Assembly: GCA_951394045.1 (NCBI GenBank)
Contig: OX595990.1
Location: 372,001-436,000, forward strand
Source: Nitzschia sp. DOCU1
Taxonomy: Eukaryota > Bacillariophyta > Bacillariophyceae > Bacillariales > Bacillariaceae
Length of the DNA: 64,000 bases
Direction: 5' to 3'
Shown: positions 6,846 to 64,000 of the stretch, piece after piece
Layout: the number at the start of each line of letters is the position of its first letter
Position numbering within the stretch: the first letter of the stretch is position 1
The notes under the pieces: model-generated
Told to the model about the DNA's origin: nothing
What the model saw: the letters and a program-made list of their open reading frames with translations, nothing else
Database searches by the model: none
Translations under genes and position numbers: made by a program

Positions 6846-7508
6846 ATGACGAGGAAGAGTACCGACATTATTACCACCATTTCGCACCACGATGTTCTCT
6901 GCGGCCGGGGCGGACTTGCCAACACGTGGCCCGGCAACAAATTGTTCCGCGGAATGATCAAAGAAAACAAGGAAATCTACCAGGAATTGAGTGAGCATGC
7001 CGTTCGCAAGCAATTGCTAGTTTCCAGTATCATCAAGGCCATTCAACATCACGGTGGACGATTTTTGCGCAAGAGCCGCTGTGGCAACTGGGTTGAAATT
7101 CCGCGACGGGATGCTTACACCAAGACGTGCCAAGCGCTGCGAGATCAAGAAAACAACATTCGTTATGGCTCCGACTCCTCTACAGTGGCTTCGGAAGGGA
7201 GAGTTTCCCCGAGTCCCGAGCATACACAATTTCGTCAGGCCCTTCGCAGCACATTGGCAAAGCAACGACTGGCAACGCGAACAGTTTCGACCGACCAGGA
7301 AGATAAGGAGAATGATGATGTAGTTCCTGACTTGGTGGTGGATGAGAACACGGTGCCGTCAATGATTACTACCACACTACAAAAGAAAGTCTGGGTTGAT
7401 GATGTCGAAGATGACCTTTGTCCTTTGGCACCCCATGAATTTATCTTTGAAAGCGTCGACGAATTCTCCCACTTATGTTCCAATCTGTTGGAGATTTGGG
7501 GCCGCTAG
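6846..7508 (+). CDS. DUF6824 (DVLCGRGG) domain protein
   Basis: 220 aa from the ATG at 6846 (context AACC-ATG-A). Residues about 14-100 carry the diatom-expanded DUF6824 domain: HDVLCGRGG, then TWPGNKLFRGMI, KQLLVSSIIKAI, GGRFLRKS and WVEIPRRDAYTKTCQALRD. The fold and job are not established as far as I know; members are abundant in stramenopile genomes and are suspected of DNA binding or regulation. The rest is acidic and disordered (DQEDKENDD), ending with FIFESVDEFSHLCSNLLEIWG, a possible interaction helix. The last codons and the 3' flank belong to a 160-bp tandem duplication. Confidence 0.85.
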   Translation: MTRKSTDIITTISHHDVLCGRGGLANTWPGNKLFRGMIKENKEIYQELSEHAVRKQLLVSSIIKAIQHHGGRFLRKSRCGNWVEIPRRDAYTKTCQALRDQENNIRYGSDSSTVASEGRVSPSPEHTQFRQALRSTLAKQRLATRTVSTDQEDKENDDVVPDLVVDENTVPSMITTTLQKKVWVDDVEDDLCPLAPHEFIFESVDEFSHLCSNLLEIWGR

Positions 7509-7785
7509 TAGCGATTCTCCGGGCTTCCCCTTTTTGATGCTATATGAATGCATCCTTTCTGTGATATCTGTTATGTTCTTGATTGAGTTGTTTATCATCA
7601 AGCCCCGATCAAGCCCCGATTGTTGTTGGGGCCGTCGTTTCAATCTGCTAGAGAATTGGGGCCGCCAGGATCGATTCTCCGGGCTTCTTCTCTTGTTGAT
7701 GTTATGAATGCATCCTATTTGTGATTTCTGTTATGTTCTTGATTGAGTTTTTAATCGCCAAGCCCCGATTGTTGTCGGGGTCTTT
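7481..7785 (+). repeat. 160-bp tandem duplication of a gene 3' end
   Basis: Copy 1 (7481-7640) starts in the last codons of the DUF6824 gene; copy 2 is 7641 to about 7785. They share the (gag)(a)ttggggccgc segment, 'cgattctccgggctt', 'tgaatgcatcct', 'tctgttatgttcttgattgag' and an end hairpin CCCCGA-TTGTTG-T(T/C)GGGG (7614-7631 and 7763-7780). The duplicated hairpin lies where a 3'-end signal could sit. Confidence 0.85.
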
Positions 7786-40085: not shown

Positions 40086-41497
40086 ATGTTTACGTCTACA
40101 GCCGCCATGATGCTGGGCCGTGTGGCCCGACCTGCCTTGCGCAGTGTGAACTACAGCTCTAGTCGATCCATGTCTAGCAAGTCGTTCGACTTGACGGGAT
40201 CGTTTCAGGTACGGTCGGATATCTCCGAGGCGAAGAGTCTCAATCCTAGTAATTCTGATACAGCTCACACTTTTCTCCTTGTCATTATAGACGCACCTTT
40301 TGGACAGTGCTCCCTCGGAAAATATCGAATGCAGCAAGGAAGAACTAGTGAGCATGTTTGAATTGATGTACACGATGCGTCGTATGGAAATCACGTGCGA
40401 CAATGAGTATAAAGCTCGAAACATTCGTGGGTTCTGCCACTTGTATGATGGACAAGAAGCCGTGGCAACTGGGATCCAATATGCTTTTGACCCTGAGGAT
40501 TCGTGGATTACTTCCTACCGTTGTCACTGTGTCGCTCTTGCCCGAGGAGGTACCGTAGCTTCGATTATTGGCGAGTTGTTTGGAGTGTCCGACGGCTACT
40601 CCAAAGCCAAGGGCGGAAGTATGCACATGTACAATAAGAAACAAAACTTTTTCGGTGGAGCCGGTATTGTCGGAGCTCAAGTTCCCGTCGGTGCGGGACT
40701 TGCCTTTGCTAACAAGTACAAGGCCGAGCCCGGGAAGCCCATGAATGTCGCGATTGCCTGCTATGGAGACGGTGCTGCCAATCAAGGACAAATCTGGGAA
40801 TCTGCCAACATGGCAAACCTCTGGAAGTTGGTAAGTAGCAGAGAATGCACTATGGAAATACGACATGGTTGCTGCTGCTGGGCTGTCGTTCTCATGTCCT
40901 TTTGCCTTGGAACTTCTTCGTCATGCCGTATTTGTCACCTTTCGTTTATAGCCCATGATGTTCTGTATCGAAAACAACCACTACGGTATGGGAACTAGCA
41001 TTGATCGTCACTCTTCTATCAGTGATTATTACAAGATGGGTAACTCTATTCCTGGTTTGCGCATTGATGGTATGAACGTCTTGGCAGTGAAAGAGGGAGT
41101 CCGATTCGCAAAGGAGTACTGCGGGGCGGGCAACGGACCCATTTATTTGGAAATGATGACCTACCGATACCACGGACACTCCATGAGTGACCCCGGAACA
41201 ACCTACCGCAATCGTGAAGAAATCGAATTCACTCGAAGTACTCGGGACCCCCTGGAGTTTGTCAAGAAGTGTTTGGTGGATGCCGAATACATGACAGCTG
41301 AAGAAATCAAGGAAACAGAAAAGCGCATCCGAAAGGAAGTTCAAAAGGAAGTACTCAAGGCCAAAGAATCACCGCGTCCACCTATGGATCTATTGACACA
41401 GCATGTGTATGCCGCAGATTTGGAACCAGGCAACCAAGCGTACCCCGACTTTATCCGCATGCCCGACTTTGCTAAGTCTCTCACCTTCAACAAGTAA
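40086..41497 (+). CDS. PDHA1: Pyruvate dehydrogenase E1 component subunit alpha, mitochondrial
   Basis: Three exons: 40086-40208, 40291-40830 and 40952-41497 (introns 82 and 121 bp, both phase 0), giving 402 aa. The N-terminus (MFTSTAAMMLGRVARPALRSVNYSSSRSM) is a mitochondrial presequence. The body matches the thiamine-diphosphate E1 alpha fold: RRMEITCDNEYKARNIRGFCHLYDGQEA, GGSMHMY, GGAGIVGAQVPVGAG, the TPP motif GDGAANQGQIWES ... ENN, and the phosphorylation loop YRYHGHSMSDPG. It decarboxylates pyruvate and, with E1 beta, acetylates the lipoyl group of E2. A conserved Ser in the loop suggests control by PDH kinase, as known for the family. Length is normal. The 3' flank lies beside an antisense GPCR remnant. 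Confidence 0.95.
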
Positions 41498-41799
41498 ATC
41501 TGTACACGAAAATGTTGCTGGAACCTAATAGAGAATGTTATTGTGAAACGATGAGTAAACGTGAACACATCGTGCCCCTTTTCGGACTGGCTTGCGAAAA
41601 TGTCACGGATCGAATGCAGATTACTTGAATAGAACAGAGAAACCTCTACTCCTCCATGGGCGACTCCTCGCACTTTGACAAAATCCCGTCGCTGTGACTG
41701 AAAATGGAGGATTCCTTGAAACAATCTGATGTGTGGGAAGCCTCTGGCGACGTGGTAGAATCTGGCGCATGCGCTGCTGGTGGCTTGCTCGGTGGCCAT
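41498..41799. other. 3' flank of PDH E1 alpha
   Basis: Non-coding on the plus strand. On the minus strand the frame of the GPCR-like fragment stays open through this stretch and into the antisense of PDH exon 3, without similarity I can recognise. Confidence 0.35.
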
Positions 41800-42084
41800 T
41801 CGAATTTCGGAAACAGAGCTCCTTCTTGGACTACTGATGATGGAAGCTCCAACAGTAACGCCTTCGGGCAAGCCCTGCCTTTGGAAGATTATCTTGGGGA
41901 CAAAGATCAGAAGAAGAATACCCAAATCGCTCAGGCACACGATACAAGTAAGAACGATGTAGCTCGCTTCGTCAGAATCGCCCACTGCCACAAGAATGGG
42001 TATACCAACTATCAGCATTTCAAAGATTTGGCGCGTGCTGTTGTCACGACGGGAAAAGCAACAGCTAGAGAAGCAGCGTATCAT
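41800..42084 (-). pseudogene. Class C GPCR C-terminal fragment (TM6-TM7)
   Basis: The minus-strand frame reads MLIVGIPILVAVGDSD, then SYIVLTCIVCLSDLGILLLI-FVPKIIF and GLPEGVTVGASI. This is the sixth and seventh membrane helices and the start of the tail of a GABA-B-like class C receptor (the FxPK motif after TM7 is typical). Directly upstream the frame has a TGA, and I find no TM1-TM5 or Venus-flytrap coding sequence in the next 2 kb. A possible splice acceptor (CTCTAG) lies just before the SRRDNSTRQ segment, so it may be an old terminal exon. I regard it as an orphan remnant; a distant upstream exon cannot be fully excluded. Confidence 0.6.
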
Positions 42085-42880
42085 TCATTCAAACAGCAAG
42101 GGCCTAAAGCTGCCATTATTATTGCAATTATAGGATAGAAAGCCTCACCTCGCTGCGGACAGTACAAAAACTGAAACGTTATTTCCTAGCTCGTTATGTT
42201 GGTTCCAATCGATGGTTGATTCCTAACGATGGAATCATCCCACCGTTAGCGTGATAATAAATGCGATTAACTTTACCATGATTAATTATGCTTGATCATC
42301 GAACTTTTGGCTTCGTTTTTGTGTTCTCACACAAAAAGTTACTGAGCCCCACCGCTACATCAAAGCAGTTCGATTTCGGAGGGGTAGGCCACAGCTGCTC
42401 CGCCCGGAGGAGAGCTCCCTCCACCCACATACGGGAGGGAGATCCGCCTAGTAGAGACAACAATCCACTTCACTTGACGGCGTACAGCCGATTCCAATCC
42501 TCCACGCACCAGCACAGGTTACACTTAACTCTCCGCGACGAGACACGAACGCGAGTGGAGGACGTTTTAAAACCGGAACCACAAACCGGTTGCATTGATC
42601 AGGCTGATTGTGTGCAGGGAGAATTGGAATCGGGGTCGAGATCGGGACCAGGATCGTTGCTCTGGAAAAAGTTGGTTTCGTTGTAGAACAAAATCAGAAG
42701 CCTGCAATAGGAGAAAAGAACAAGGTGAGTAGCACTGCGGGAGAGAAATATGAAAATATGATCAAAGGGCACCAGACAATGCGCACTTACCACAAGACAC
42801 CGAATACATGCACAAACACATCCACAGATCTGTTGAAAGAAAGAGAGAAGAACAAAGACAGAACACGAGGGAGGATCAAT

Positions 42881-43020
42881 CCCGGCGTGCTGCCGACGGA
42901 AGCTTTTAGGATCCCACCCATGGGGATCCCAGGACATTGTTTCACAACAACATCCAGGCGTGCTATCCATCGGAGCTTTTAGGGTCCTACCAGTGAGGAC
43001 CCGAGGACGTCATCTCCGCA
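42881..43020. repeat. 73-bp duplicated hairpin unit with compensatory changes
   Basis: Unit 1 (42881-42948) and unit 2 (42953-43020) share 'ggcgtgct', 'gcttttagg' and flanks. Each carries a 7-bp stem with a 7-nt loop: GGATCCC/GGGATCC (42909-42929) and GGGTCCT/AGGACCC (42982-43002). Two stem pairs differ between copies (A-T to G-C, C-G to T-A), and both strands changed together. Confidence 0.75.
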
Positions 43021-43091
43021 ACTCGCACGAACTGCCGACTTTCCTGCGAGACAAACAGCAGCCGATGGCGCTGCTGAAGGACTGTCATCTC

Positions 43092-43122
43092 CATCATCGT
43101 CATGAAGTTCATGACGATGATG
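43092..43122. repeat. 31-bp perfect inverted repeat
   Basis: 15-bp arms catcatcgtcatgaa and ttcatgacgatgatg around a single G. Folded as RNA it would give a 12-bp stem with a 7-nt loop, the same loop size as its neighbours at 42909, 42982 and 43056. Confidence 0.85.
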
Positions 43123-44049
43123 AAGAAAGGAGCGAAACAGAGTGCTCCTCTCACGAAAAAGTGAGGTCGATCCATGAAAAAAGTGACAAAATCGTGGACT
43201 TTTCCCTCTTTCCGAGAGGCAGTTTCTGCTGCGGTTTCGTCATGGTTTACAAGCGGAGTATCCCACGTTGAACGACCGAAGTGATCCACATGAACCAAAA
43301 ACCCATGCTAGCTTTGATTGTTGCATCCCAATAAGGCAATTCAAGAATGTTGATTGTTGACATGTTGACATTTACAATACATTATCATCACCATTGTCGT
43401 CTTCAGTATTCAAGATCTCCTCTGCTAAGCAGAGGCGTCATGGATAGCGCAAAAGTCGGTTCTCGTCTTGGAGGCAAGCTGCGCCAAGCACGATGCCTTC
43501 CTTTCTCTTTTATTGGTACACGAATACGTTGAATACTCATGCGGGCAGGCCTTCCTTCCAATGACCCCAAATTGACTTCTTTGACCACGGATAGGCCCGT
43601 CACACCCACGACAGCGCCTCGTACCAGTACGACGCCGAAGATTATTGGTTGATTTATTTGACCACAGTTTGATTCTTTTGACTCAATCGCGGGTGGTGGC
43701 CAGGCGGGTCGCGTGAGTCCAAGCAACGCCGATTTCTTTTCGTTTTCCGCGCTATCAGAAAGGAGAATTCTATCGAAGTGGCCACAAAATAGCGGGGGGA
43801 GAATGCCGGTATCCGAATGACGTTGGCAGCATTTCTGTATCTTTGCGTAAATAGTGCGCACGCACGCCGCGAGGAAGTCGACCACCACCTCATCTTTTTT
43901 CCTTGCCCCTCGTATTATTATTCTCTCAATTCTCGTCGTCAGCGTCATTTTTGGTTGATGGATGATGCGAGTGGTCGAGAAAGAGAAGGAGCCAACAACC
44001 GAAACGACAAATTCATTTCGATAGACTGCTACACAACTGTCTAGTAACG

Positions 44050-46120
44050 ATGATCAGCTCTTTTGCCGCTCTTTCGTTTGCCCTGGTCGTTGCGTCGGCA
44101 ACGGGCCAGGTGGACATTCCAGTTGAACCTGCTACGGTTCCAATTGAATACATGGATGGAGACGCCACTCTTCTCGGCCACCTTGCCATGCCCAACGCAA
44201 CGGAGAAGGTACCCGCTGTCGTCATCATCCCGTGAGTAAAGTGGTGTGCTGGGCGTTCCTCTAGTATTCGAATCTCACCCACTTGCTATTGCATCGGTAC
44301 CATTAAAGAGATTGGGACGGAGTAAATGAATATGAACAAGTCCGAGCCACTCTAATTGCCCAAGGATGGGGATTTGCTGGTTTTGCCGCAGATATTTACG
44401 GAGCGGACCTGCAATTCGTCGAAAACGTGACACAGCGTGGTGAGCTTGCCACATTTTATCGAAGCAACCCCGACGTCTTTGGAAGCCGCATCCGAGCTGC
44501 CGTTGAATATGTCAAGAGTATGCCCGAAGTTGATTCGGAAAAGGTCTCTTTGATTGGATAGTAAGTACAACGATACATTGCCAAGAAGAATACACCACAC
44601 CATTGTGTTTGGCTCTCACCACGCACGAATTTTAAACCACAGTTGCTTTGGCGGAACCGGTGTCTTGCAGTATGCCATGTTTGGAAACGATGACGTCGAA
44701 TCCATTGTTTCTATCCACGGAGGACTGAATTTCTTGCCGGATGAGCCTTTGCCGGTGATGCCCAAGCTTCTCGTCTTGTCTGGTGGAGATGACGATGCCT
44801 CCACAGATATTATGGATTTGGAAATGACTTTGGACAACGCCACAGCCCTTTGGGAAATCACTCGCTACAGCAACATTCAACATGCATTCTCCGTTTTTGA
44901 AGATGGTAAGTAAAACCTCTCTCGAATGAGGAAATTACGCATGTGCTGTTCTCAATCTTTTGCTCGTTGTTGCAGAACGCTACAACCCTTGGGCGGATAT
45001 GCGCTCGTGGGATTCTGCGTATGACTTTATCTTGGAATCGTTTGAATTGTTGGAGTACACGTCGGTGATTCCCATCGAACCCAACACTTTGGAAGTCGAC
45101 TATGTGGATCCCATGGATGGCATGGAGCTTCGTGGACATTTGGCTCTACCGTCGGCAGAATGGCAACGACCCCTTCCTGCGGTTGTGATTCTGCCCAATT
45201 GGGATGGTGCCAATGAAGCCGAACGCGAACGAGCCACCGCCTTTGCCGACATGGGGTACGTCGCCATGGTGGCTGACATTTTTGGCGCAGATAAACAATA
45301 TGTGGAGACTTTCGAAGAACGTGGCGCTTTGATTACTCAGTATTTTGAAAACCCCGAACTCTATGTCTCTCGAATGACTTCGGCTATCGATCAACTCAAG
45401 ACTTTGACTGGTGATGTGGATGTCAATGAGATGGCCATGGTTGGATAGTAAGTACTATCATGTGATATACTGGCTAAAGTCTCTCGAGATGCAGTACCTC
45501 ACTCCGTGTCGTGTGCCCTACTTTGCTTGTTCTATGCTATCCGATAGTTGTTTTGGTGGATCGGGCGCCGTGCTCTACTCGTTTTTCAGTGGGGCCGACA
45601 TGAAGGTGGCGGTAGCCTTGCACGGCTCTTTTACTGACCTTCCACCCGTTTTGGTTGACCAAATTTCTCCTTACTTGTTGATGTAAGTACCCGAAGGAAC
45701 GGTTTATTGGTTGAAAATCAATATTGAAGGCCCGAGTCAGCTAATACCTATTTGCACAGCCTTTCCGGTGGTGCAGATGTCCTTCACGGAAACCAAACCA
45801 TGATGGAAGAAGCCTTTAACAGTGGAAACGCAGACTGGGAAATCACCCGCTATGCCGGCGTTCAACATGGATTCACTGAACTTGGTGACGCCTACAACGT
45901 AGTTGCTGATGCTCGCTCTTGGGAAAGCACGATGACCGCTTTCCATGAACTCATGGCCATTCCCCAGAAGGTGGGTGGTACTGACGACATGACTCCTGGT
46001 GGAGCTCCTGCGGGTGATGATGAAGAACAGCCCGAGGAAAATGCTGCGGTTACGGGCTGTTGGACTTTCACCATGGGGCTGACGATGGCCGCTTTGACTG
46101 GTGCTTTCATGGCGTTGTAG
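44050..46120 (+). CDS. Two-domain dienelactone hydrolase family protein, secreted
   Basis: Six exons: 44050-44231, 44309-44560, 44643-44905, 44976-45447, 45548-45682 and 45760-46120; 554 aa. The start gives a signal peptide (SSFAALSFALVVASATGQ). Two alpha/beta-hydrolase repeats follow. Each has a WDG strand segment (PDWDGVNE; PNWDGANE), FAADIYGADLQ or VADIFGADKQ, the nucleophile elbow GYCFGG(T/S)G with Cys, LSGGDDD or LSGGADV (Asp), and QHAF or QHGF (His). Both triads are complete, so both domains may be active. The family hydrolyses lactone or ester substrates; the substrate here is unknown. The C-terminus ends in a hydrophobic tail (CWTFTMGLTMAALTGAFMAL) that could be a GPI signal or membrane anchor. 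An intron splits the Tyr codon before Cys in both repeats. Confidence 0.9.
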
Positions 46121-46944
46121 TAAGCCAAAGCGAAAAGTATTCGTAGCGATCAAAGTTAATATATGTACACTTATTGGGTTGCAGTCTAGGCAGATGAATA
46201 AGTCAGTGATAGGTTAGATTAGAGCCATCGCCTACCCGTGTCCTTGGGTGGCAATTAAAACTAAGGCAATCCCATTGAAGCCTCATTTTCGTATCCTGAT
46301 TTGTTTGATGGAGATTTCACGACGGAGTCGATTCGCAACAAGACCAAAGAAAAGAAGACGGCGCAGTTATTGTAAGTATGAGGAGCCCTTCACGACGGAG
46401 TCGATTGACAGCAAGACTAAAGTCACGAAGACGGCGCAGTTTTGTATCTACAACGGATCGCCTTTTCGGCAATAGATAATCATGCTCGAACCATCTGCTA
46501 GCAAGGTGGGCAAAAGGTGGCACATCCGCGTCGCAGGAAACCTTGATTTCCCCTCCACGATGTCTTCAACAGCGATTGTTAGAATTTGTCTGGGATCTCA
46601 CTATAATTTCGATGACTCCATGTTCTTGTCAATAAAAACCAAATCGCACACGCTCGTTATTCGAACGTGCCGGAAGGCGGCGAGAAGAATGCTTGGATAG
46701 GCCATTAACGCCAAAACCGCATAAAATGTGAGAAGATTGCTTTCTTCTTGCTCGCGAGGACTGATGGAGTCACGGGAACTAAGTCGTGGGGCTTCAATAT
46801 TATGAAGATTTTGTCAAGATTGAAGGAGTCTCCGTTTTTTATTAGTGCCCACTTTCCAGAATTTATGGACATGGTCGACATAACGGAGGCTCGTTTCCCA
46901 GCATAAATATTTTACCATTTGTCAGGTTATTATTGCCTACTGGA
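46121..46944. other. Intergenic with 73-bp tandem repeat
   Basis: About 820 bp. A 73-bp unit is repeated at 46316 and 46389 ('ttcacgacggagtcgatt ... aagacggcgcag'). Both copies keep an open frame reading FTTESI ... KT ... KTAQ on the plus strand, without a start. No other gene seen. Confidence 0.5.
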
Positions 46945-48333
46945 ATGGCGCGAAGGCGTCCAAGACACTCCCACCACTGGTCATCATCATTTTTCGCTTC
47001 GCCGTGCTATCGTGCTTTTTTCGTTTCTGAGTTGACTGGGATCCCTCACACATTTCCCAAAAGTGAAAGAAAAGAAACCCCAGACGCAAAAGCACCAACA
47101 CGAATGTCTCAGACCTATCCAGAAACAATGAATATCCACCGCTTCGTTCCCTCAGCCCAATGCCGGTTCTCTCTTGTGAACACTTCGCCAGCTACCCCGA
47201 TGATGAACGGGCGGGTGCTTGGATTGATAGGCAGCAGTTCTACCGGTAGTATGTTGAAGAGGGAATCAGAAGTAATCGCTGCATCTGCGTTGGCGTCGCT
47301 CTATTCGGAGGCTGGTTTGCCCTCGCCCCTTGCGTATGAACAACATATCTACCATCAGATGAAGAATAAGCAACGGGAAGAGCAAGAACTCAAAGGACGG
47401 AACGCCAAGAAGTTTGAAGTCCCCGAACGCTTCACCAAGAATGGCCGCAGACGTGCTGTACCCTTTCCACTCAAATTGATGAAGGTTCTTTCTGATGATC
47501 GATACAGTCATATCATCAGCTGGATGCCAAGTGGTAGATCCTTTGTGATCCTTCGTCCGAAAGCCTTCGCAGCCGATGTTCTTCCAACGCATTTTAAGTC
47601 TGCCCAGTATGCTTCGTTCACCAGAAAACTTTCCCGATGGGGCTTCACAAGGTGCGAAGACGGTACGGGAGAATTCTACCATCCTCTATTCTGTAGGGGA
47701 AGGCTCGATCTTGTCGACAAAATGAGATGTCATGGGTTTTCTTCCAAGTCCGAAGAAGCCAAGAAAGACAACAGCAAGAACGTAGACACCGAATCAAGGA
47801 ACGACGCTGAAGACGCCTCCAATTCCGGGGATGATGCTACATGTGCATCGAGCGTGAAGAGATTAAAGGAACAGGCCCCTGAAGACCAATCAGGTGTCGA
47901 ACCTAGTCAGACGAGCAACACCCTTCGCGGTAAAGAGTCATTAAGAATGCCCCCAAGTCGTCTCGAGTTGGGTTTGGTTGAGAACAAGGAACGCTACCTG
48001 CACCTTGAGCTTGAAGCTCTGCGTCTTCGCCGGTGCATCCGTGCTGCGACCACTTCTCGCAAGGCCCTCGCAGAAATGCAACACCTACGCTTCGGTGCTG
48101 GATACATGGGTAGCAAATGTGGCAATCGGGCGTTTGCTCTTGGTGCGGCGGGCGTCTTTGCAGAACTTCCTGCTGGCAGTCGCGGAGCTTCGTCTCGAGT
48201 GCCTTGGCGAAGTATGATGCTTGCAGATCTTATGGGAACGGGTCCAATCGGTGGGTCTCGTGATTTTGACGCAAATCCATACTCCTCGCTAGGCGCTCGC
48301 CGCCCGAACACACCGGGCGCAAAGTCAGCCTAG
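46945..48333 (+). CDS. HSF-type DNA-binding domain protein
   Basis: 462 aa from the ATG at 46945; an ATG at 47104 gives 409 aa and could be the true start, since the first 53 residues lack recognisable content. The HSF-type domain lies at about residues 170-265: VPFPLKLMKVLSD, HIISWMPSGRSFVILRPKAFA, YASFTRKLSRWGFTRC and EFYHPLFCRGRLDLV. The recognition helix reads SFTRKLSRWGF, not the usual SFxRQLNxYGF, so its DNA target may differ. A basic stretch (RFTKNGRRRAVPF) precedes the domain. An acidic Ser/Asn linker follows, then a Leu/Arg-rich helix (RYLHLELEALRLRRCIRAA), a possible coiled coil. Nuclear regulator by family. Confidence 0.85.
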   Translation: MARRRPRHSHHWSSSFFASPCYRAFFVSELTGIPHTFPKSERKETPDAKAPTRMSQTYPETMNIHRFVPSAQCRFSLVNTSPATPMMNGRVLGLIGSSSTGSMLKRESEVIAASALASLYSEAGLPSPLAYEQHIYHQMKNKQREEQELKGRNAKKFEVPERFTKNGRRRAVPFPLKLMKVLSDDRYSHIISWMPSGRSFVILRPKAFAADVLPTHFKSAQYASFTRKLSRWGFTRCEDGTGEFYHPLFCRGRLDLVDKMRCHGFSSKSEEAKKDNSKNVDTESRNDAEDASNSGDDATCASSVKRLKEQAPEDQSGVEPSQTSNTLRGKESLRMPPSRLELGLVENKERYLHLELEALRLRRCIRAATTSRKALAEMQHLRFGAGYMGSKCGNRAFALGAAGVFAELPAGSRGASSRVPWRSMMLADLMGTGPIGGSRDFDANPYSSLGARRPNTPGAKSA

Positions 48334-50884: not shown

Positions 50885-51051
50885 TTTAAAAGTAGACACT
50901 GTCTTCTTTTAAAGTTAAAAACAGACATTGTCTTCTTTTAGAGTTAAAAACAGACATTGTCTTCTTTTAGAGTTAAAATCAGACAGTGTCTGTTTTTAGA
51001 GTTAAAACCAGACATTGTCTTCTTTTAACTTTATAAGTAGACCTTGTCTTG
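50885..51051 (+). repeat. Left terminal palindrome array, six 29-bp units
   Basis: AGACA-N-TGTCT-like palindromes start at 50893, 50923, 50952, 50981, 51010 and 51039, joined by TTCTTTTA-GAG-TTAAAA-type spacers that are themselves inverted. The last unit is degenerate. Confidence 0.85.
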
Positions 51052-55032: not shown

Positions 55033-56001
55033 TTATACCTTAAAGAGTGGACTACCATTGTCCAACTCGAACTGCACGATCACAGCACAAGCTTCAAATG
55101 CAGCCTTGTGTTGCATCATCCTGTTTTCTCCAGTTGATCTGAAATTTTCGTTCAAAATTTTGAACGCTTTCAAACGGCTATTTACAGTTTCATGACGAGC
55201 AAGAACCCGTCGCTTGAACTTTCTAACTTGCTTGGAATCAAAGACGTTCTTTGTCGTCGCCTTTTCTTTTTCTCCACGGTAGCCTTTGTCGCCAATCGAC
55301 ATTTTACCTGGCGGAATCCTTTCCTTCAAGCCACCAGGCTTTCGAAAGATGTTTACATCGGTCTGACCAGCAGGAAATGGGCCATTGATCCAACAAATTT
55401 GGTTTTGATGGATTGCTACTCCAAGCTCGTATGCCACACCGGCGCGGTTGAATTTTTTGGAATACCAAGTTGCCGACGGTGTCTTGCGGGGCTCCCAAAT
55501 TCGACAGTGGACCCCATCGACGCTGATGATAAACAGTTCATCATGATTTTCGTTGTCCTGTTCAAACAACCATTTAATCTATATGAAAGCACAAGGAAGT
55601 TAGAGAGGTAACATAGGAAAGTTCGTGGTTTGGGTGTGGGGCATTACCTTTCTTTCCTTTAAGGCCGCGACCGCAAAGGTGTATTTCCACACTCGCTTGA
55701 GTGCCGTCTTCTCGCACGAGTCATTGAATCCAGCAAGTTCAATCTTTGTAGGATACTTTTTTAAGAAGTAGAAAGCCTCCAAGAGATGGGAAGGGTCAGG
55801 ATTTGGGATTGCTAGGTCCCCAAGAGTAGGATCCTGAATGGCAAGGAACACTTGTTTTAAAGTCTTCGGGCAGGCGTAGTACTTATCCTTGAACCAGTCT
55901 CTTTTGGCACTTTTGTTGCCTTCAATCCTCTTCATGCTGAATCCAGCAAGTTGTAGGCCAACAAGAAGGAAATCTCTCTTCGAGAATGTCAACAATACCA
56001 T
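55033..56001 (-). CDS. PIF/Harbinger-like DDE transposase
   Basis: Two exons on the minus strand: 56001-55648 and 55578-55033, with a 69-bp intron (GTAATG donor, CATATAG acceptor, phase 0), giving 299 aa. The start is the first ATG (MVLLTFSKRDFLLVG); upstream codons reach only a GTG. The second exon holds the DDE endonuclease core: SVDGVHCRIWEPR (first Asp), GVAIHQNQICWINGPFPAGQTDVNIFR, SIGDKGYRG (second Asp) and RHETVNSRLKAFKIL (Glu). The catalytic triad looks complete and no stop interrupts it, so the gene may be active. It would cut and paste the surrounding element by binding the palindrome arrays at its ends, as inferred from the family. The N-terminal half (WFKDKYYACPKTLKQVF) is a likely helical DNA-binding region. 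Confidence 0.85.
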
Positions 56002-56280: not shown

Positions 56281-56425
56281 AATTGCAGACAATGTCTTCT
56301 TTTAAAGTTAAAAACAGACATTGTCTTCTTTTAGAGTTAAAATCAGACAGTGTCTGTTTTTAGATTTAAAAACAGACTGTGTCTGTTTTTAACTTTAAAA
56401 GAAGACATTGTCTGATTTTAGAATA
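56281..56425 (-). repeat. Right terminal palindrome array, five 29-bp units
   Basis: AGACANTGTCT-like palindromes start at 56287, 56316, 56345, 56374 and 56403, exactly 29 bp apart. The outer end is the inverted counterpart of the left array. Confidence 0.85.
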
Positions 56426-61536: not shown

Positions 61537-61798
61537 AGCTAGCAACCGCATTATCGCAACTGGGTAACTGATAGTCCAATCCTATCGACAGCTAGCATGA
61601 ATCGTATTGCCTGCTTCCGTATCTATGTTTTCCCCACTTCAACACCAATCCCTCGTCCGTTTCTTTCATACAGACCGTTGACAAGCTTTCTTCTTCGTCT
61701 TCTTGCAACCCCTCGTCCGTTTCTTTTATACAGATCGTTGACGAGCTTTCTTCTTGTCTTCTCGCCCCCCAAAGAAAACTACTCCGTTGTCTTACTTA
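61537..61798. other. Convergent 3' flanks with direct repeat
   Basis: Two diverged copies of 'cccctcgtccgtttct..catacag.ccgttgac.agctttcttctt' lie at about 61651 and 61709, roughly 59 bp apart. Confidence 0.5.
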
Positions 61799-63706: not shown

Positions 63707-64000
63707 TCATTCCCAAGAATCTGTTAAAGGATCTTCTTGGGCATCGTAGAAAATGTCCCCTTCGGTGCTGCTGTCTGAACTTGTTGCACCATTTCGATCC
63801 TCCCCTCCCAAAGTGCTGCTGTCTGAACTTGTTGCACCATTTCGATCCTCCCCTCCCAAAGTGTTGTTAATGTTATGGGTACCACCAGTCTCTGCGGCTA
63901 CTGGAACCGCATCGTTCGCAGCAGTATAATCGTCAAGATCCTCAAAAATCCCATGAGTAGTAGTATCATTTTTGTAATTTCGGCGATTGCTGATGTTTTC
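63707..64000 (-). CDS. C-terminal part of an acidic repeat protein
   Basis: The open frame enters from the right edge and ends at the TGA at 63707-63709, giving 97 codons with no start in the window. The protein is acidic and Asn/Thr/Ser-rich. It contains an exact 16-residue tandem repeat (TLGGEDRNGATSSDSS twice) encoded by a 48-bp DNA repeat (about 63763-63861), and ends EGDIFYDAQEDPLTDSWE. Not recognised. The intact frame across the repeat and the acidic composition argue that it is real coding sequence. Confidence 0.6.
   Translation of the reverse strand, partial: ENISNRRNYKNDTTTHGIFEDLDDYTAANDAVPVAAETGGTHNINNTLGGEDRNGATSSDSSTLGGEDRNGATSSDSSTEGDIFYDAQEDPLTDSWE
63763..63861 (-). repeat. 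48-bp tandem repeat, two near-identical copies
   Basis: Unit 'gtgctgctgtctgaacttg...cctcccaaa' occurs twice back to back inside the partial coding frame; 48 bp is a multiple of three, so the frame is kept. Confidence 0.85.

Follow-up and report, generated by a model that had tools for sequence, protein, structure and literature searches.

A multicopy, mainly subtelomeric repeat family with partly conserved hairpins and kept splice-like sites in Nitzschia sp. DOCU1

Introduction

A short stretch of the Nitzschia sp. DOCU1 genome, at positions 42350–43300 of a 64,000-nucleotide segment (hereafter the window; C6:372001–436000 of an assembly of 52.08 Mb in 63 contigs), carries a run of inverted repeats and raises the question of what such a hairpin-rich element is. 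The initial annotation proposed either a structured non-coding RNA or a hairpin-based DNA element. We find that they lie in a shortened member of an extensive repeat family, whose conservation pattern suggests an undescribed RNA that is spliced, folded and without a protein product. The interest attaches to this family and not to the window copy alone.

Results

The ten inverted repeats that the initial annotation had listed are all present where it had placed them, and they are real and above chance. Folding of 42350–43300 gave z-scores of −4.01 on the plus strand and −5.06 on the minus strand, and none of 20 shuffled controls equalled the native sequence on either strand. When hairpins with loops of 3–15 nt in this region were counted against 100 dinucleotide shuffles, five had arms of at least 7 bp (0.48 in the shuffles, none of which reached five) and eight had arms of at least 6 bp (shuffle mean 2.42, with eight reached in 1/100). 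The highest hairpin count among 951-base tiles of the whole window belongs to the tile at 42276. The reported duplication was confirmed as a 57-nt unit with 75% identity and a start-to-start distance of 73, and inspection of the sequence bore out both of its compensated stem pairs (A-T to G-C and C-G to T-A). Other details needed correction: 7-nt loops had been claimed for four listed hairpins and occur in three of them (42909, 42982 and 43056), and the repeat at 42398–42409 (CTCCG/CGGAG), listed as a stem-loop, would have a 2-nt loop, which makes a hairpin impossible. Folded alone, 43086–43128 (z −8.49), 43052–43080 (z −3.10) and 42405–42450 (z −2.16) are unusually stable, but neither duplicated hairpin unit is (z −0.82 and +0.63).

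Matches to the window copy occur in at least 148 pieces of the genome (best 40 of 159 candidates). A 34-mer from its conserved 3′ part (42571–42604, minus strand), used as a family tag, has 108 genome matches at up to three mismatches, compared with none for the reversed control; among the matches listed (100 places), every one has 0 or 1 mismatch. We examined 44 of these at least 108 copies, namely the window copy and 40 fetched copies, aligned together as 41, and three further loci. Based on blastn of window positions 41000–45000 against 20 other copies, the window copy spans approximately 42262–43426 with its predicted sense on the minus strand, the outermost matches being at 42262 (L015, L018) and 43426 (L010). 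No clear-cut 5′ limit is common to the copies, and coverage along L012, L016 and L024 drops gradually on this side. The 3′ side stops near GTTCGATGA in 34 tails of type I and two of type II (defined below), and no A-rich or simple-repeat 3′ tail was identified in the 36 tails inspected.

Read along the minus strand, on which all its stranded features lie, the window copy opens with a partly conserved 5′ leader (43187–43426) containing a CAACAATCA-like motif near 43350–43359; in the family this leader may include a promoter. The leader is followed by a series of hairpins (described below) and by the 3′ splice-like AG of intron A (42830–42831; …TTTCAACAG, exon from 42829), which is AG in 39/41 copies. 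At the adjoining deletion junction (42820–42825), approximately 760 bp of other copies (ref 374–1133), including the segment that we call core I, are absent, and short repeats at this junction point to microhomology. Ref 655–1125 is present in 39/41 aligned copies; the window copy lacks ref 374–1133 and L028 lacks 527–1063. The window copy thus derives from the family by internal deletion, and the predicted introns B and C went with the deleted stretch. The 3′ site of intron A is intact, as is intron D (42702–42790; GTAAGT…TTGCAG), whose GT and AG are each found in 41/41 copies. Within the 3′ part, the hairpin CTCCCTCC/GGAGGGAG (42415–42441) is by eye kept in most rows, with one terminal mismatch. 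The 3′-terminal hairpin (42309–42348; GGCTC…AGCC) is retained in two different sequence versions, and 45/49 instances fold alike, as judged by reading.

The family consists of discrete units of 1.4–2 kb, among which two cores occur. A 32-mer of core I matches the genome at 41 places: 31 match exactly, 10 have a single mismatch and none has two or three, although three were allowed. L054 and L055 resemble the family in the leader (78% over ref −129 to 59) and in the 3′ part (85% over ref 1207–1670) but have a different middle. This middle, core II, is unrelated to core I and is placed between the same leader and 3′ part in the two loci read. Core II is 98–100% identical across the best 40 of 51 candidates, its pattern has 47 genome matches (41 exact), and its fold gives a z-score of −3.23. 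The other tagged copies examined are short forms, such as the window copy and L053, and many loci carry additional tandem copies of the 3′ part.

Conservation along the unit is uneven. Copies differ on average by 2.3% in core I (ref 705–905) and by 6.6–17.6% in 14 other segments, some of these latter values being inflated by misaligned rows. Seven splice-like dinucleotides are intact in 274/280 cases, compared with an average of 88.9% for other dinucleotides outside the core; when sets of seven dinucleotides were drawn at random outside the core, 0.5% of the sets reached such a minimum and 1.0% such a mean. The conserved GT…AG sites expected of a spliced Pol II gene are present. GTACAT, at the 5′ splice-like site of the predicted core intron, resembles the usual consensus weakly and counts against reading the family as a spliced-RNA gene. 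The uniformity of the copies could also stem from recent duplication or gene conversion, a source to which L054 and L055 point, since they are 98.5% identical across all 1.6 kb compared; their likeness continues past the unit.

No common open reading frame was found in the 20 copies printed, among which the longest frames vary from copy to copy; frames in single copies reach 210 amino acids. The core block lacks codon phase (minor-allele counts 64/65/48). Among the three blocks given this test, block 1380–1640 was uneven (184/110/108), which we put down to misaligned rows.

Pairing is conserved in some hairpins and lost in others. The two module hairpins, m1 (42982–43002; copy 2 of the duplication) and m2 (42909–42929; copy 1), both with 7-nt loops, have 96.4% of main-helix cells and 100% of cells paired, respectively, the latter over 35 distinct rows. 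Together they have 98.9% of cells paired across the 41 copies, a level seen in 0/500 shuffles (96.6 ± 0.4), and three double-changed pairs, a number equalled in 25/500; these shuffles ignore kinship. Their pairing is retained through G-U, A-U and G-C states: one pair of m1 shows CG/GC/GU and another GU/AU/GC, and three pairs of m2 show three states each. In the core I helices, 99.3% of cells are paired versus 99.1 ± 0.1 in shuffles (13/500), and three double-changed pairs were matched in 1/500, with the structure being the consensus fold of the same alignment and the shuffles again blind to kinship. The long helix of the 3′ part hardly varies and is accordingly of little use for judging pairing.

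The hairpins nearer the leader, in what we call the A1 stretch, are more variable. Hairpin hD (43056–43076; CAGCAGC/GCTGCTG, 7-nt loop) has 98.6% of cells paired and varies by wobble only, and hB (43128–43149; AGGAGC/GCTCCT) has 93.9% paired over 31 copies. The long hairpin hC (43092–43122), which accounts for the stable fold at 43086–43128, comprises two segments, in which 94.6% and 87.1% of cells are paired (31 copies); one pair shows GC/AU/CG/GU states and one is unpaired in 21/29. In contrast to its presence in the window copy, hA (43150–43165; CTCAC/GTGAG) is not conserved in the family (63.0% of cells paired, 31 copies), and hE (43022–43050; CTCGCA/TGCGAG) is missing from most copies, being clear by eye in only 3/31 (window, L037 and L038). 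Together the A1-stretch hairpins have 87.8% of cells paired versus 86.1 in shuffles, with no surplus of double-changed pairs (3 versus 2.4; 226/500 shuffles). In m1, m2 and hD, G-U pairs outnumber A-C by 65 to 2, as expected of a minus-strand RNA. Hairpin hC is neutral on strand (G-U 29, A-C 29) and hA opposite (G-U 0, A-C 29); when all six hairpins are combined, G-U occurs in 17 pairs and A-C in 14, which confines the strand signal to m1, m2 and hD. The RNA structure of the family is supported in parts, not proven.

Comparison with Rfam 15 gave no match in the window at gathering score. In L012 (2900–4900) it gave 12 matches up to E 5, the best at E 0.12 and all far under gathering scores, and in L053–L055 none up to E 1. 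No tRNA was found in the window; a tRNA-like 3′ end suspected by eye (CTCAG to GTTCGA spacing) was dropped, because the fold there is a simple hairpin. Five unnamed ENA proteins, encoded on contigs of 615–2733 bp and lacking Pfam domains, match open frames of the unit. Four resemble the examined copies (P0002 94%, P0004 85% over 78 residues, P0003 69% and P0001 63%) and P0005 resembles the type II query (97%). Related units are thus on record outside this assembly, whether from another strain, another species or further copies of the same genome. Viral contigs gave no match to three exact patterns, and four records labelled bacterial that share a 20-mer in a contig database were taken as chance. 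In the open-licence papers found, with passages of PMC9266582 and PMC9262227 among them, we saw no description of such a family.

The family lies mainly towards contig ends; telomere repeats were observed at the left end of C1, the one contig covered by the listing, and the remaining contig ends are assumed to be telomeric. For tag positions we counted the 86 of the 100 listed places that fall on nine contigs of known length, leaving out 12 rows on C11 and two on C13. Within 400 kb of a contig end there are 53 of the 86 (17.7 expected if uniform), and within 100 kb there are 16 (4.4 expected), 14 of which point towards the end. Type II placement was analysed for 39 of the best 40 hits (of 51 candidates; the hit on C13, a contig of unknown length, was dropped): 37/39 are no more than 400 kb away from a contig end, the closest at 7.6 kb, and 32/39 are directed towards it (23/28 outside C11, P 0.0009). 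Type I copies lie within 400 kb in 21/41 cases, none past about 1.26 Mb, and show no orientation bias (21/41 towards the end). On C6 the window copy sits about 414 kb in from the left end. On C11:50550–197488, nine tags follow each other at a spacing of about 17–21 kb in a single orientation, and the type II cores of this series (spacing roughly 18 kb) are 100% identical over 371 nt at seven places, consistent with a tandem subtelomeric segment. Duplication among subtelomeres may be enough to account for the end-ward orientation of copies near ends. On C5, the spacing of type I copies looked semi-regular.

As a comparison, we placed the 101 Copia reverse-transcriptase matches that fall on the nine contigs among the best 150 of 425 candidates; 17/101 lie within 400 kb of an end, versus 20.7 expected, and C11:50–200 kb holds none of the best 150. 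Derivation from a Copia retrotransposon is not supported, as among the 150 candidates scored the family is neither linked to this reverse transcriptase nor spread like it.

Discussion

We favour, with about even confidence, the interpretation that the family is a gene for a structured non-coding RNA, present in many copies that are mainly subtelomeric, and that the stem-loops belong to one shortened copy of it. Of the two possibilities first proposed, the RNA is the better supported, because the duplicated hairpins and the terminal hairpin keep their pairing and the splice-like sites are kept; several of the listed stems are without conservation. We infer that intact members would be transcribed from the minus strand of the window and spliced at the GT…AG introns. 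Their RNA would carry a hairpin-rich 5′ part and one of the two alternative cores between the common leader and the common 3′ part, with core I inside a predicted intron, and would end in a structured 3′ domain with the terminal stem-loop. Once folded, it might bind a protein and act at chromosome ends, for instance on subtelomeric chromatin. The window copy, having lost its core, is probably a degraded or minor member. More tentatively, and with considerable doubt, we suggest that the family may represent an undescribed class of cassette-like spliced subtelomeric RNA, in which a constant leader and a constant folded 3′ domain enclose either of two near-invariant cores that are unrelated to each other (core I being intronic). 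This class would be kept uniform over dozens of copies on different chromosomes and would act in trans at chromosome ends.

The main alternative is a repeat that has no cellular RNA function, either a non-autonomous mobile element or a sequence duplicated among subtelomeres; its hairpins and splice-like sites would then be relics, or would assist its own propagation. We regard this as a real possibility, though not the one we expect to hold. The copies are dispersed with differing flanks and neighbouring genes; no flanking ORF family occurs in more than 5/41 loci, and among 14 flank frames scanned, 10 of which have a Pfam match (including PEP carboxylase, sulfate permease, Sec3, WD40, PP2C and RecQ), there is no common neighbour gene. 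The identical type II cores of the C11 series, the likeness of L054 and L055 outside the unit and the additional tandem 3′ parts at many loci also fit such a repeat. It accounts less well for the uneven conservation with retained splice-like sites, for the double changes in the module and core I helices, for a 5′ end that is not sharp, and for Copia reverse transcriptase being neither among the listed matches in C11:50–200 kb nor enriched near ends.

Could the hairpins act as DNA, for example as a protein-binding or replication element? Their arms are also good inverted repeats as DNA, and hC tolerates G-U and A-C changes equally, but m1, m2 and hD tolerate G-U and hardly A-C, and splice-like sites are present; we consider this unlikely. 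A protein gene family, intact or decayed, would explain the splice-like sites and the longer single-copy frames, yet the longest frames differ among the 20 copies printed, the core block lacks codon phase and the database matches are limited to the five unnamed frames, which come from short ENA contigs and lack Pfam domains, so that we judge it highly improbable.

The favoured RNA family has partial parallels in known systems. The TARE lncRNAs and intergenic GC-rich ncRNAs of Plasmodium falciparum are multicopy and subtelomeric or near variant genes, and TARE-6 RNA is described as consisting of hairpin-forming repeats (PMC9262227). The likeness lies in multicopy, subtelomeric placement and in hairpins; TARE transcripts are known, whereas the present family is known from DNA alone. 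TAREs are tandem satellites beside the telomere, in contrast to discrete units reaching to about 1.26 Mb from the ends, and the splice-like sites and alternative cores are features of our family unlike TAREs. Type II copies, but not those of type I, partly recall TERRA in being mostly directed to the contig end; the unit has no visible telomere-repeat array. Yeast Y′ elements and the subtelomere repeats of Chlamydomonas are subtelomeric duplicated elements. Like them, the family keeps its orientation near ends, as in the nine C11 tags; unlike them, its conserved part is non-coding and partly folded. SINEs and other non-autonomous repeats are similar in having many dispersed copies with a common 3′ part and differing upstream parts, but the family keeps an intron-like structure and the 36 tails inspected lack an A-rich or simple-repeat end. 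With some hundred copies, a near-frozen core, a frozen 3′ end and kept splice-like sites, it offers an easily probed candidate for an RNA acting at chromosome ends in a little-studied eukaryote, and a system in which to study how subtelomeric copies remain uniform.

Other features of the window

The window copy adjoins a 144-aa frame (41704–42138) without a Pfam match. Pfam domains in the surroundings identify a dehydrogenase E1 component (40300–41497), a dienelactone hydrolase (44960–45448) and an HSF-type DNA-binding protein (46933–48333). Further along, about 5.5 kb is framed by two arrays (50886–51050 and 56286–56420) whose 29-bp units are palindromic at the centre (CAGACA…TGTCTG), and a DDE_Tnp_4 transposase fragment (55036–55569; Pfam E 1.3e-12) is encoded between them; this array-framed segment is presumably a PIF/Harbinger-like DNA transposon. 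Two-copy tandem repeats are located at 7477–7769 (unit 160 bp), 61646–61762 (60 bp) and 63765–63863 (48 bp, 100% identity).
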